Shown one piece after another: positions 38,106-53,074 of a stretch of DNA of 64,000 bases. The stretch is from Haloarcula sp. CBA1127. GTDB taxonomy: Archaea; Halobacteriota; Halobacteria; Halobacteriales; Haloarculaceae. A program made the position numbers and the translations under genes. How positions within the stretch are numbered: the first letter of the stretch is position 1; every line of letters starts with the position of its first letter. The notes beneath the pieces are model-generated. The model was not told the DNA's origin. It saw only the letters and a program-made list of their open reading frames with translations, and made no database searches. Where the stretch lies: positions 2,480,001-2,544,000 of the forward strand of contig NZ_BCNB01000006.1 in assembly GCF_001485575.1 (NCBI RefSeq). The letters run 5' to 3'.

Positions 38106-38142
38106 GTGATTGGGAGCGCTGACAGAATCCGGTCAGGCAGGA

Positions 38143-38322
38143 TCAGGCGGACAGGATGTCTTTGCCGGCTGTCTCCTCCGCGATCCGTATCTGGAGCGCC
38201 TGCCGGATGTGGTATCTGGCCGCCTCGCTTTCGGCGTTCTCAAGTGCCTTTTCGAGTTCGGCATACAGTGGGTCGCTGGGATTGGGCATGTGAGTAGGTC
38301 TTTCATTAGTGAGAATAGACAT
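38143..38322 (-). CDS. 59-residue helical conserved protein
   Basis: Frame MSILTNERPTHMPNPSDPLY, then AELEKALENAESEAARYHIR and QALQIRIAEETAGKDILSA. The helical core (ENAESEAARYHIRQALQ) looks like a small conserved haloarchaeal protein family as I remember it. A second ATG at 38289 (MPNPSDPLY) may be the true start, giving 48 residues. TATA-like TTAATAC lies at 38344-38350. It is convergent with purM (37-nt gap). Confidence 0.6.
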   Translation of the reverse strand: MSILTNERPTHMPNPSDPLYAELEKALENAESEAARYHIRQALQIRIAEETAGKDILSA

Positions 38323-38408
38323 ATACCCCTGACACTGTTTTCAGTATTAAGCCCCTCCTACGGGTAGTACGCGGCCACTATCGCAGTTCGCGCTTCTGAG
38401 AATTAGAG

Positions 38409-43120: not shown

Positions 43121-43507
43121 ATGGAGGACCTCCTCGACGCAGCGAGAGACGCCATCGACGAGGCGTACGCGCCATACTCGGAGTACACCGTTGGCGCGGC
43201 GCTGGAAACGAGCGACGGTACCGTCTACACCGGCTGTAACATCGAGAACGCCAACTACAGCAACAGCTTGCACGCCGAAGAAGTGGCCATTGGTGCGGCT
43301 GTCAGCGACGGGCACCAGTCGTTCGAACGCGTCGCTGTCACCTCTGGCAAGCGCGACGGCGTCACTCCCTGTGGGATGTGCCGACAGACGTTCAGCGAGT
43401 TCTGTGACGAGTCGTTCGAAATCATCACCGACGGCGACGAGCCGACGGTGTACGAGCTCGGGGAGCTCCTGCCGACGACAATCACCAGCGACCATCTCGA
43501 CAAATGA
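43121..43507 (+). CDS. cdd: cytidine deaminase
   Basis: 128 residues, the short tetramer-type length. Zinc ligands and catalytic Glu are in LHAEE (H51, E53) and TPCGMCRQTFSEF (two Cys). Short tetrameric deaminases usually have CAE at the first site; here it is HAE as in the longer dimeric E. coli enzyme. The substrate loop NIENANYSNSLHAEEVA is conserved. It converts cytidine and deoxycytidine to the uridine forms. Its stop overlaps the next gene's ATG by 4 nt, coupling it with uridine phosphorylase. Confidence 0.93.
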   Translation: MEDLLDAARDAIDEAYAPYSEYTVGAALETSDGTVYTGCNIENANYSNSLHAEEVAIGAAVSDGHQSFERVAVTSGKRDGVTPCGMCRQTFSEFCDESFEIITDGDEPTVYELGELLPTTITSDHLDK

Positions 43508-44328
43508 CAAGCGATAGTGAAGACCCGAATGACGACGTACAGTACCATCTGGAAGTAGGCGCGGACGACGTGGCCGACAGCGTTCTGCTGCCGGGGAATC
43601 CAGAGCGTGTGGAAAAGGTCGTCGACTACTGGGACGACCACGACATCGTGGCCGAACACCGCGAGTACCGCACGGCAACGGGCAATCACGACGGCACGCC
43701 AATCTCCGTGACCTCGACCGGTATCGGCGGTCCATCGGCCGCTATCGCGCTCGAAGAACTGGCCCGCGTCGGCGCTGACTCCTTTATTCGGGTCGGCTCC
43801 TGTGGCGCAATTCAGGAGGAAGCCAGCATCGGCGACCTCGTCATCACGACCGGCGCGGTGCGACAGGAGGGGACCAGCAAGGAGTACGTCCGCGAGGATT
43901 ACCCCGCCAGCGCCGACCATCGGATCGTTTCGGCGCTCATCGCCGCCGCCGAGGAACTCGGCTACGACTACCACCTCGGCGTCACCTGCTCGACCGATAG
44001 TTTCTACGCCGGGCAGTCACGCCCCGGATTCGAGGACTTCGAGGCCAGCGGCAGCGACGAACGCATCGCGGCCCTTCAGGAAGCCGGCGTCCTCAACTTC
44101 GAGATGGAGGCCGCCACAATCCTCACGCTCGCGAACCTGTACGGCCTGCGGGCCGGCGCTGTCTGTACGGTGTACGCCAACCGCGTTACCGGCGAGTTCC
44201 GCACCGAAGGAGAGCGCAAAGCGGCCAAATGTGCCAGCCTCGCCGTTTCGTATCTGGCGGAGATGGACGCGGCTGTCGAGGAAGCCGACGCCGACGGGTG
44301 GCACGCTGGCCTGTCTATCGACCGCTAG
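43504..44328 (+). CDS. udp: uridine phosphorylase-family nucleoside phosphorylase
   Basis: 274 residues of the PNP/UDP family: VLLPGNPERVEKVVDYWDD, the phosphate-binding TSTGIGGPSAAIALEELARVG, IRVGSCGAIQEEASIGDLVI and the uridine-phosphorylase-type FEMEAATILTLANLYG. It splits uridine with phosphate into uracil and ribose 1-phosphate. Overlap (ATGA) with cytidine deaminase makes a nucleoside salvage pair. In haloarchaea ribose 1-phosphate may enter the pentose bisphosphate pathway; that is family knowledge, not visible here. A multi-hairpin element follows downstream. Confidence 0.92.
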   Translation: MTSDSEDPNDDVQYHLEVGADDVADSVLLPGNPERVEKVVDYWDDHDIVAEHREYRTATGNHDGTPISVTSTGIGGPSAAIALEELARVGADSFIRVGSCGAIQEEASIGDLVITTGAVRQEGTSKEYVREDYPASADHRIVSALIAAAEELGYDYHLGVTCSTDSFYAGQSRPGFEDFEASGSDERIAALQEAGVLNFEMEAATILTLANLYGLRAGAVCTVYANRVTGEFRTEGERKAAKCASLAVSYLAEMDAAVEEADADGWHAGLSIDR

Positions 44329-44426
44329 GCTTCTCGACACCCGATAGCCGCGAGCGGCCGCTGTTGCAGTATAGAAGTAGTGCGGTAGCGGACGCTGTGC
44401 AGTCGCGGAGCGGTAGGAGACAGCAT

Positions 44427-44561
44427 ACCGCTCGCCAGTGGCGAGCGGTTTCACTTCTCGCGACCAGCGGGAGCGAGAAGGTCGTTTTTAGCGTAGATTT
44501 TTGCAAAGGGGGGTTCCCGCAGCGCCGGAGGCGCGAGGAAAACCCCCTGCAGTAAAAAGGT
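44427..44561 (+). repeat. multi-hairpin intergenic element 1 (between udp and ndh)
   Basis: In order: hairpin ACCGCTCGCC-AGT-GGCGAGCGGT (44427-44449); hairpin CTTCTCGC...GCGAGAAG (44454-44480); GTCGTTTTTAGCG; TTTTTGC (44498-44504); a nested hairpin with outer stem GGGGGTT/AACCCCC (44509-44515, 44541-44547) and inner GCGCC-GGA-GGCGC (44522-44534); and AAAAAGGT (44554-44561). It lies between convergent genes, and the T-runs could end transcription from the left. The same architecture with different stem sequences recurs next to gyrA on the other strand. The region before it (44329-44426) shows nothing else. Confidence 0.65.
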
Positions 44562-44566
44562 ACTCG

Positions 44567-45736
44567 CTACATGTCGGGCCAGGCCTTGGCGGCCCGACCG
44601 ACACCGGTCATATCGTTAATCCAGCGGGCGGCAATCGCTTTCTTCAGCAGTTTTGCGGGCATCCCGCCGAACGTCTCGATAGGCATATTCACCACGTCGT
44701 GGGCGACGGCTTTCTCGCCGACCGAAACGACCGTGCCCTTGTCCTTGTGGGTCCAGGTCTTCAGTGGCTGGCCTCGCACGGCGCGAGCGAGGTTTTCGCC
44801 GGCGACTTCGGCGGCCTGCCAGGCGGCTTGGGCGGTCGGCGGGGCGGGCTGGTCGCCCGGCTGGTCAATCAGCGCCGAGTCGCCGATTGCGAAGACGTGT
44901 TCGTCATCGGTCTGGAAGCTCCCTTCTGCGTGGACGCGGTGGTTGCGCTCGTCCTTGTCCAGATCGACCTCTTGCATGCAATCGCGGCCGGTGATGCCGC
45001 CCGTCCAGACCAGCACGTCGTAGTCCAGTTCGTCCTCGTCGCCGATGTAGACCGTCTCTTCGTCGACTTCGCCGATGAACTCGCCGCATTTGATGTTCAC
45101 GTCGGCGGCCTCCAGTCGCTTGCGCAGGGCGCCCTGGAGTTCCGGGTCGCTGTTGGGCAGGACCTGGTCGAGACCTTCGACGAGATGGATGTCGATAGGT
45201 GCGTTGTGTTCGTCGCGGAACTCGGCGACCTCGCCGGCGGTCTGAATGCCGGAGAGGCCAGCGCCGCCGATGACGACCTGTGCGGGGTCGTTTGTGGAGG
45301 CTTCGCGGGCCGCTTGCTGAACCTTGTCGTGGATTTCAAGCGCGTCGTCGAGACTCTTGAGCGTCAGGGCGTACTCTTTGAGGCCCTCAATGCCGAAGAA
45401 GGCGGTCTGGGAGCCCAGCCCAACGAGCAGGTAGTCGTACTCGACGGTGTCGGAGTCCGCAAGGTCCACCTCTTGGGCGTCGGTGTCGATACCAACAACC
45501 TCGTCCTGAATGAAGTTGGTCGAGGGCTGCTTGATTTCGTGGACGGGGATGGCGATATTCTCCTGCACGCTCGGGTCCCGGATGCAACGGTGGGACTCGT
45601 GCAAGACCAGATGATAGTCCGTCTCAGAGATCCAGGTGACATCAACGTCAGTCTGGCCATCTAACTCGTCCTCGAAACTCTTTATTGCCCCCGCGCCGGC
45701 ATACCCCGAACCGAGCACCACTACGTTCTCTGTCAT
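44567..45736 (-). CDS. type II NADH dehydrogenase-like flavoprotein (NDH-2)
   Basis: 389 residues. FAD-binding Rossmann start VVVLGSGYAGAGAIKSFE, NADH-binding second Rossmann VVIGGAGLSGIQTAGEVAEF, and HVFAIGDSALIDQPG near residue 290 as in NDH-2 and related disulfide-reductase-fold enzymes. It would oxidise NADH and pass electrons to menaquinone at the membrane without pumping protons. The C-terminal part (PAKLLKKAIAARWINDM) can supply an amphipathic membrane anchor. A sulfide:quinone-like role is less likely because no conserved cysteine pair is seen. A hairpin sits about 50 nt upstream of its start. Confidence 0.87.
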   Translation of the reverse strand: MTENVVVLGSGYAGAGAIKSFEDELDGQTDVDVTWISETDYHLVLHESHRCIRDPSVQENIAIPVHEIKQPSTNFIQDEVVGIDTDAQEVDLADSDTVEYDYLLVGLGSQTAFFGIEGLKEYALTLKSLDDALEIHDKVQQAAREASTNDPAQVVIGGAGLSGIQTAGEVAEFRDEHNAPIDIHLVEGLDQVLPNSDPELQGALRKRLEAADVNIKCGEFIGEVDEETVYIGDEDELDYDVLVWTGGITGRDCMQEVDLDKDERNHRVHAEGSFQTDDEHVFAIGDSALIDQPGDQPAPPTAQAAWQAAEVAGENLARAVRGQPLKTWTHKDKGTVVSVGEKAVAHDVVNMPIETFGGMPAKLLKKAIAARWINDMTGVGRAAKAWPDM

Positions 45737-47505: not shown

Positions 47506-48420
47506 ATGGAACAACAGGTTCGCGTGCTCGGCGTGCCGATGGACCTCGGCGCTGACCGGCGCGGCGTCGACATGGGACCATCAGCGATACGGTACGGCGG
47601 CCTCGCCGACCAGTTGTCGGATATTGGTATCGACTGCATCGACGGCGGCGACATCGCCGTGCCACGACCGGAGGAGCGCGACCCCGATGCCGGTGGGCTG
47701 GAAAGCGGGCGCGCGAAGTTCTTCAGAGAGACAAAAGAGGTCTGTGAGGACGTGACGACGGCGGTCGATGCGACCCTGCGGGAGGGACGGTTCCCGCTCG
47801 TTCTGGGCGGCGACCACTCTATCGGCATCGGTACCATTTCCGGTGCGGCCCGCGAGGACGAGGAACTGGGCGTCATCTGGTTCGATGCGCACGGCGATTT
47901 CAACACACCGGAGACCACACCCAGCGGGAACATCCACGGGATGTCGCTGGCGGCCGTCCTCGGTCTCGGTGAGTTTTCGAACCACGAGTGGGCGCACACG
48001 CCGGCAGTGAGCGAGGAAAACATCGTCATCGTCGGGCTTCGAGACGTGGACGACGAGGAACGCCGGCTGATCGAAGAAAGCGACATCACGGCATACACGA
48101 TGTCTGATATCGATGCCCGGAGCGCACCGGAGGTCGTCGACGAGGCACTGGAAATCGCCACTGATGGGACGGACGGGATACACGTCTCGCTCGACCTCGA
48201 CTGGCTCGACCCGACGGAAGCCCCCGGCGTCGGGACGCCGGTTCGTGGCGGTGTCTCCTACCGCGAGGCCCACATCGCGATGGAGTACGTCGCCGAACAG
48301 CACGACCAGCTGCGCTCGATGGAACTGGTCGAGGTGAACCCGATTCTCGACGAGCACAACCGCACTGCCGAACTGGCCTGTGAACTCGTTGCCAGTGCCT
48401 TCGGCAAGCGCGTACTGTGA
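47506..48420 (+). CDS. rocF: arginase
   Basis: 304 residues of the ureohydrolase family with the Mn site complete: LGGDHSIGIG, WFDAHGDFNTPETTPSGNIHG and VSLDLDWLDPTEAPG. The NTP-TT-SGN-HG wording is that of arginases (substrate loop) rather than agmatinases, and VEVNPILDEHNRTAELA closes the fold. It hydrolyses arginine to ornithine and urea. GTCTTTATTC upstream (about 47475) gives a leaderless start at 47506. It is convergent with gyrA across a 275-bp region holding the second hairpin element. Confidence 0.92.
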   Translation: MEQQVRVLGVPMDLGADRRGVDMGPSAIRYGGLADQLSDIGIDCIDGGDIAVPRPEERDPDAGGLESGRAKFFRETKEVCEDVTTAVDATLREGRFPLVLGGDHSIGIGTISGAAREDEELGVIWFDAHGDFNTPETTPSGNIHGMSLAAVLGLGEFSNHEWAHTPAVSEENIVIVGLRDVDDEERRLIEESDITAYTMSDIDARSAPEVVDEALEIATDGTDGIHVSLDLDWLDPTEAPGVGTPVRGGVSYREAHIAMEYVAEQHDQLRSMELVEVNPILDEHNRTAELACELVASAFGKRVL

Positions 48421-48471: not shown

Positions 48472-48548
48472 TTATTCTTCAGTGACGGTTGGCACGACTG
48501 TCACACTTGCCACACGGTCATCCTCTTCGAGCCCATAATCGTCACCCC
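48472..48548 (-). pseudogene. duplicated remnant of the gyrA 3' end
   Basis: On the minus strand this reads like the end of gyrA: after GTGACGATTATGGG, one base is missing relative to gyrA, then CTCGAAGAGGATGACCG... translates [19 protein letters not shown] before TAA at 48472-48474. Bases 48491-48548 align with 48711-48769 at all but about five positions plus one indel. The two copies bracket the hairpin element, so one copy is a duplicate made when the element arrived, or one is the original gyrA end. Confidence 0.75.
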
Positions 48549-48693
48549 GCTTCCACCTTTTTCCCGCTCGGGTGGCCGGAGGCCACAATTCGCGGCAAAA
48601 ACGTGGTCTTGCTGAGCAGCGCGAAGCAAGGCTCGAAAGACGAGCTGAACGAGTCTTTCGGTGGCGAAAAAGGCCGCTCGCTTCGTTCGCGGC
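48549..48693 (-). repeat. multi-hairpin intergenic element 2 (between arginase and gyrA)
   Basis: Read on the minus strand: GCCGC...GCGGC (48693-48673), a T-run CCTTTTTCGCC, CGAAAGAC...GTCTTTCG (48660-48634), CTTGCT...AGCAAG (48630-48608), GTTTTTGC (48602-48595), GTGGCC-TCC-GGCCAC (48586-48572) and AAAAAGGT (48562-48555). This is the same order of hairpins, GTTTTT-GC, a hairpin with a GGA/TCC loop and AAAAAGGT as in element 1. The T-run just after gyrA may end its transcript. The element sits between two copies of the gyrA tail. Confidence 0.65.
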
Positions 48694-48695
48694 TG

Positions 48696-53074
<4,379 letters not shown>

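Follow-up and report, generated by a model that had tools for sequence, protein, structure and literature searches.

The 64,000-nucleotide stretch of Haloarcula sp. CBA1127 analysed here (contig NZ_BCNB01000006.1, positions 2,480,001 to 2,544,000; hereafter the window) contains two multi-hairpin elements, each located between convergent genes (Table 1), at positions that were given in a preliminary description and confirmed by sequence. Element 1 separates a gene for a uridine phosphorylase-type protein (udp) from that of a pyridine-nucleotide oxidoreductase, for which we use the short name ndh, and element 2 lies between an arginase-family gene and gyrA, the corresponding gaps being 238 and 275 bp long. 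The earlier statement that these are the only long convergent gaps in the window was broadly upheld. A crude gene caller gave one further gap of 303 bp (38106-38408), which appears to result from overlooking a short minus-strand ORF (38144-38289, about 47 aa by our own reading) that was missed by larger-ORF gene calling. When compared with shuffled sequences, the fold of element 1 was clearly exceptional (z -6.4, 0/200 shuffles), and that of element 2 was less striking (z -2.5, 3/200).

Table 1. Genes, elements and element parts at the two loci (positions within the window).
Feature	Position	Strand	Remarks
Uridine phosphorylase-type gene (udp)	43504-44328	+	PF01048
Element 1	44423-44563		Between udp side and oxidoreductase gene; type A
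Element 1, third hairpin (distal end)	44423-44449	+	GCATACC box, ACCGCTCGCC/GGCGAGCGGT stem; sequence, fold
Element 1, second hairpin	44454-44480	+	CTTCTCGC..GCGAGAAG, immediately 5' of double T-run; fold, own halves better than chimeras
Element 1, double T-run linker	44483-44504	+	CGTTTTTAGCGTAGATTTTTGC, type A; invariant linker
Element 1, core hairpin	44503-44553	.	Conserved internal-loop motif CCTCGC..GCTGYGGG on minus strand
Element 1, P end	44554-44563	-	GTACCTTTTT
Pyridine-nucleotide oxidoreductase gene (ndh)	44567-45736	-	PF07992
Arginase-family gene	47506-48420	+	
gyrA 3' end, second copy (y')	48478-48552	-	Degenerate, frameshifted, 75 bp; flanks element 2 on the arginase side
Element 2	48553-48693		Between arginase-family gene and gyrA; type B, linker split
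Element 2, P end	48553-48562	+	CCACCTTTTT
Element 2, core hairpin	48563-48600	.	GGGTGGCC GGA GGCCAC; sequence, fold
Element 2, inner T-run	48595-48606	-	CCACGTTTTTGC
Element 2, insert with two extra hairpins	48607-48661 (approximate)	-	CGAAAGAC.., CTTGCT..AGCAAG; splits the linker
Element 2, outer T-run	48663-48677	-	GCGGCCTTTTTCGCC
Element 2, second hairpin	48673-48693	-	GCCGCGAACGAAGCGAGCGGC; two nt past gyrA stop codon (48696-48698)
gyrA	48696-51155	-	
gyrA 3' end (y)	48699-48773	-	Intact direct-repeat member

In element 1, the CCTTTTT of the P end begins six nt past the minus-strand stop codon of the oxidoreductase gene (44567-44569). At the opposite end, relatives keep the GAAACCG..CGGTATGC frame of the third hairpin with variable stems. 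Regarding the stems that had been proposed as counterparts, GCGCC/GGCGC of element 1 and GTGGCC/GGCCAC of element 2 do correspond to each other as the stems of the core hairpins. This was not so for CTTCTCGC/GCGAGAAG and CTTGCT/AGCAAG, as the latter pair belongs to the extra insert of element 2, and the true counterpart of the second stem of element 1 is the GC hairpin at 48673-48693. The two-hairpin insert is missing in normal copies, and was found again in one other copy of this genome (L018, ~1421-1510) and in the gyrA copies of three further genomes (G020, G007, G027); it looks like a smaller nested unit. Two features went beyond the preliminary description, one being that the T5/A5 runs constitute the conserved core of the family and the other the copy of the gyrA 3' end that flanks element 2 (local alignment score of 48 between y' and y). 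The same y' structure at gyrA was also seen in five genomes (G024, G014, G020, G008, G021).

BLASTN searches with each element retrieved further copies in this genome, revealing a dispersed family of 120-170 bp to which both belong. Its members follow a common plan, in which a stop codon is followed by (C/T)ACCTTTTT, the core hairpin, and AAAAA with a fixed linker, either CGTGGGCGAAAAA (type B) or TCTACGCTAAAAA (type A), and then by the second hairpin, GAAACCG, the third hairpin and CGGTATGC, with one or two hairpins beyond the A-run linker. On the opposite strand the linker reads TTTTTCGCCCACGTTTTT or TTTTTAGCGTAGATTTTT, so that it contains two T5 runs. The internal-loop motif CCTCGC/GCTGYGGG is conserved in many cores. 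A MAFFT column alignment of all cores was structurally wrong because arm lengths vary; owing to this problem, the family was searched with patterns and reversed controls instead of a covariance model.

The strict pattern, CCTTTTT-N35-65-AAAAANNTNNG, produced 13 matches in this genome and none when reversed, and it was detected in 31 of the 32 genomes of the genus, typically in 4-24 copies, with 0-1 matches for the control. The proposal of a dispersed family was thus borne out, and a chance or composition artefact as its origin was rejected on the basis of these controls. The pattern was also frequent in the family Haloarculaceae and several further families within the order Halobacteriales, its abundance being limited to parts of the order; outside Halobacteriales the counts equalled those of the controls, that is, chance level. 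Among named genomes, the exact type B linker was found mostly in Haloarcula, Halomicroarcula, Halorientalis, Halomicrobium, Halosimplex, Halorhabdus and Salinibaculum, and the few exact matches in Bacillus, Selenomonas and Thermoplasmata were judged to be due to chance. This genome contains 15 exact double-T linkers, all of them on the 3.12-Mb main replicon; allowing one mismatch added mostly noise (24 matches versus 18 in the control). Searches against Rfam 15 at gathering and at permissive thresholds (E-value under 1) gave no matches. No account of the family was found in a literature search, which does not by itself prove its absence elsewhere.

The stems of different copies are almost unrelated in sequence and nearly always self-complementary. 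As the MAFFT alignment was wrong, covariation was tested by arm chimeras and within one fixed-length class. A first arm test based on global alignment had a high GC-driven baseline (0.66 within copies, 0.56 between copies, 0.53 shuffled) and was replaced. In the chimera test, the left half of one stem was joined to the right half of another among 126 distinct copies. Minimum free energies for own, chimeric and shuffled halves were -27.4, -19.8 and -19.1 for the core, -19.3, -11.0 and -10.2 for stem 2, and -12.7, -7.6 and -6.4 for stem 3. Chimeras therefore folded almost as poorly as shuffled halves, meaning that the arms of different copies do not pair with each other much better than shuffled arms do. 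Within a single size class of 23 distinct cores, 94.7% of the cells were paired versus 77.2% after shuffling, six of nine pairs had changed on both sides, and the covariation score was 0.433 compared to 0.114 for shuffled sets (0/500) and below 0.08 for slid structures. The claim of conserved linkers with covarying stems was in this way substantiated, compensatory changes being far above both shuffled and slid controls.

The position of the family relative to genes was analysed for 201 copies, with neighbours taken from our own heuristic gene calls (ORFs and third-position GC) rather than from annotation. The distance from the P-side stop codon to CCTTTTT was 2-6 nt in 73 of the 201 copies and 13-80 nt in only four, and in many other copies the stop codon of the distal gene lies just beyond the linker (second) hairpin. 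Neighbouring pairs within 450 nt were convergent in 78 cases, codirectional in 67 and divergent in seven; the preliminary description had proposed as a test that many matches should fall between convergent genes and show compensatory changes, and both were found. Features expected of archaeal T-run terminators were present, with a T-run (T4 or more) soon after the stop codon, gene-end placement and avoidance of divergent gaps, although a minority of copies, in divergent pairs or without an adjacent stop codon, do not fit the placement of a terminator.

In Haloferax volcanii, intergenic termination sites consist of a T stretch ending at C, one such terminator reached an efficiency of 95% in a reporter, and some of the sites are preceded by hairpins (PMC7237163). 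Every copy of the family offers T5 runs to polymerases arriving from both sides. As (T)ACCTTTTTC right after the stop codon and hairpin-TTTTTCGCCCACGTTTTTC on the opposite strand match the Haloferax signal, we infer a bidirectional terminator. A polymerase leaving the P-side gene would meet (C/T)ACCTTTTTC a few nt past the stop codon, and one coming from the distal gene would encounter two T5 runs (TTTTTCGCCCACGTTTTTC or TTTTTAGCGTAGATTTTTG) after passing one or two GC hairpins. Transcripts would end at the T-runs, with the hairpins aiding termination or protecting 3' ends, and the combination of a T-run terminator on each strand with a self-complementary core between them would help to keep transcription units apart. 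In element 1, the P end would accordingly be the putative terminator of the oxidoreductase gene, and the double T-run the predicted stop signal for transcripts from the udp side. Since polymerases from either side reach a T-run before the core hairpin, there is no need for the core to act as a terminator hairpin of the bacterial type, and its conserved pairing calls for another explanation; possible roles are arrest of read-through, protection of 3' ends and a block to the polymerase. Considering what is seen by sequence, namely membership, anatomy, gene-end placement, covariation and old orthologous sites, it is probable that the family represents dispersed bidirectional transcription terminators of haloarchaea, with an additional layer of flanking repeats.

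The same paired stems could instead belong to a 3'-UTR RNA element acting on mRNA stability, protein binding or processing by the archaeal termination nuclease, and not to a terminator proper. The base pairing of hairpins 2 and 3, which lie within the transcript of the distal gene, is under selection, and the conserved internal-loop motif of many cores would fit such a role; however, conserved bases are mainly those of the T5/A5 runs and the borders of these, on either strand the core comes only after the first T-run, and the stems have no common sequence and no Rfam match, making this explanation quite improbable. Even harder to sustain is that the family constitutes a DNA-level palindrome between convergent genes, such as a cruciform, a nucleoid-protein site or a recombination or replication barrier. 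The core is indeed palindromic, T5/A5 included, and long direct repeats at the element (see below) suggest recombination or replication-fork trouble, but the element is asymmetric and its placement with CCTTTTT just past the stop codon is oriented, T5 followed by C on both strands matches the known termination signal, and codirectional pairs also carry the element, which leaves this reading with hardly any likelihood.

Compared with intrinsic terminators of haloarchaea and other archaea (PMC7237163; U-tract with aCPSF1, PMC8716108), the family is alike in its T5 runs followed by C past stop codons and in the hairpins upstream of one set of T-runs. It differs from them in that two opposed sets of T-runs form part of one cassette of 120-170 bp, found again and again across the genome and the order, in which the linkers are conserved and the paired stems vary. 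On these features, the family would be a kind of T-run terminator not previously described in the literature searched.

Conservation in place was followed at the ndh site, where an element with a T5-hairpin was found 2-7 nt past the stop codon in 25 of 28 sampled genomes of the genus (counted by eye), with wholly different stems and even different linker types from genome to genome. From these comparisons we take the element at this site to be old, to have stayed in place and to be selected for form. As a separate observation, the oxidoreductase gene is present twice in this genome, in near-identical form (99% over the C-terminal 200 aa), with the type A element 1 behind one paralog and a type B element (L036, C6:1791322-1791378) behind the other. 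Behind oxidoreductase paralogs of genome G003 (L064 and L073) a second partial element is joined through an N base, possibly an artefact of repeat assembly.

Of the 201 copies, 52, element 2 among them, lie between direct repeats of 40-128 bp (median 75). One member (y) belongs to the gene reading toward the element from the distal side, of which it forms the 3' end, and the other (y') stops 0-8 nt short of CCACC; in 47 of the 52 copies the distal gene reads in. No copy with a repeat has an adjacent P-side stop codon (0/52), versus 77 of the 149 copies without one. Several genes were sampled in two or more species, and their junctions were identical or nearly so between them. The identity between y and y' within a genome was 0.92-1.00 at most loci, the copies at gyrA and L194/L196 being more decayed, and that of either member between species was 0.67-0.88. 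Such a pattern is concerted evolution, y and y' being homogenised within each genome, and it is consistent with the very efficient gene conversion described in polyploid haloarchaea (PMC8223754).

At patchy loci, gain and loss were tied to the flanking repeats. The element at the gyrA site is patchy on the gyrA tree and absent from 17 of 30 genomes, hence it is not essential there. At a methyltransferase gene, the arrangement of y, element and y' was found with the same junction in 13 of 30 genomes, with the best match of y' in its own genome in 12 of these 13; inspection showed that two genomes flagged as filled (G025, G002) were false positives of the regular expression. In an empty genome (G014), the post-stop flank begins exactly where the y' of a filled genome ends (score 52 over 60). 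The precise empty sites of relatives would agree with loss of the element by homologous recombination between y and y', an event that would not damage the gene. Five loci (L110 at G011:C1:1319202-1319779, L083, L222, L206 and L276) contain tandem arrays of element plus gene end, with periods of ~120-195 bp and up to four copies, as in the four copies at 170 bp of G011. Tandem duplication of the gene end with its element was rejected as the sole origin, since at gyrA and the methyltransferase gene the precise empty sites are better explained by insertion plus duplication; at some loci (L051, G010), remnants of a second element beside y' support tandem duplication.

The preliminary description had left the choice between a terminator family and a small mobile palindrome. 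The former fits best, and simple cut-and-paste mobility was not supported, given that orthologous sites are old and that neither terminal inverted repeats nor, by BLAST, plasmid or phage copies were found. A broader form of the second option, in which a MITE-, PATE- or REPIN-like palindrome inserts near gene ends and terminates transcription only as a side effect, is also unlikely. It would account for dispersed copies, tandem arrays, precise empty sites, patchiness at gyrA and the resemblance of the flanking repeats to long target duplications whose junction at the CCACC end is fixed. Against it, inverted termini were not seen, the repeat never accompanies an adjacent P-side stop codon, junctions common to distant species imply old insertions, the main chromosome carries all 15 double-T linkers, BLAST retrieved no plasmid or phage copies, and only a single viral contig contained a match.

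Bacterial REP, REPIN and BIME sequences are likewise intergenic, palindromic, dispersed and preferentially found at the ends of genes and in convergent gaps, but here the stems share almost no sequence, the arms of different copies pair little better than shuffled ones, the T-run linkers are the conserved parts, and the copies are stop-codon-adjacent and associated with long repeats of host-gene 3' ends. A palindrome of conserved sequence, which would define REP/REPIN, was therefore not found. For a MITE or a derivative of a classical transposon, the ends (CCACCTTTTT, and GCATACCGC or variable) showed no inverted match by inspection, and direct repeats that might represent target duplications, within 0-8 nt of the CCACC end, occur at only the 52 copies mentioned above. 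Mobile DNA is known to integrate into the 3' ends of tRNA and other genes with att direct repeats. The family resembles such integration in the duplication of a gene 3' end on both sides, the intact gene and the precise loss, but has only ~100-200 bp between the repeats, no integrase, and repeats that are gene-specific and homogenised within genomes. The PATEs and SMRs of Haloquadratum are also haloarchaeal, transposase-free and provided with palindromes near their ends; however, PATEs, which are related to IS605 termini, do not duplicate their target, whereas a quarter of our copies have direct repeats, which speaks against that assignment, and SMRs have inverted terminal repeats that are lacking here (PMC3119063). 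By the features tested, we judge that the family is not REP, MITE or PATE.

The flanking repeats would also allow a self-spreading, transposase-free terminator, installed through duplication of the terminal 40-128 bp of the target gene on the far side of the element, with both copies kept alike by gene conversion and with a traceless exit. We regard this as a speculative and rather doubtful scenario; if true, it would represent a reversible termination switch run by host recombination, without a close known counterpart.

Archaeal termination is still defined mostly by short T-runs. As bidirectional terminators, these two-way cassettes, which keep their place while their stem sequences vary, would provide many natural variants for learning what termination needs besides T-runs. 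Their gene-end repeats document, in polyploid archaea, both gene conversion and the precise gain and loss of elements. Moreover, annotation pipelines could use the family to place 3' ends in many genomes of haloarchaea, and it might serve as a source of compact two-way terminators for genetic work in these archaea.
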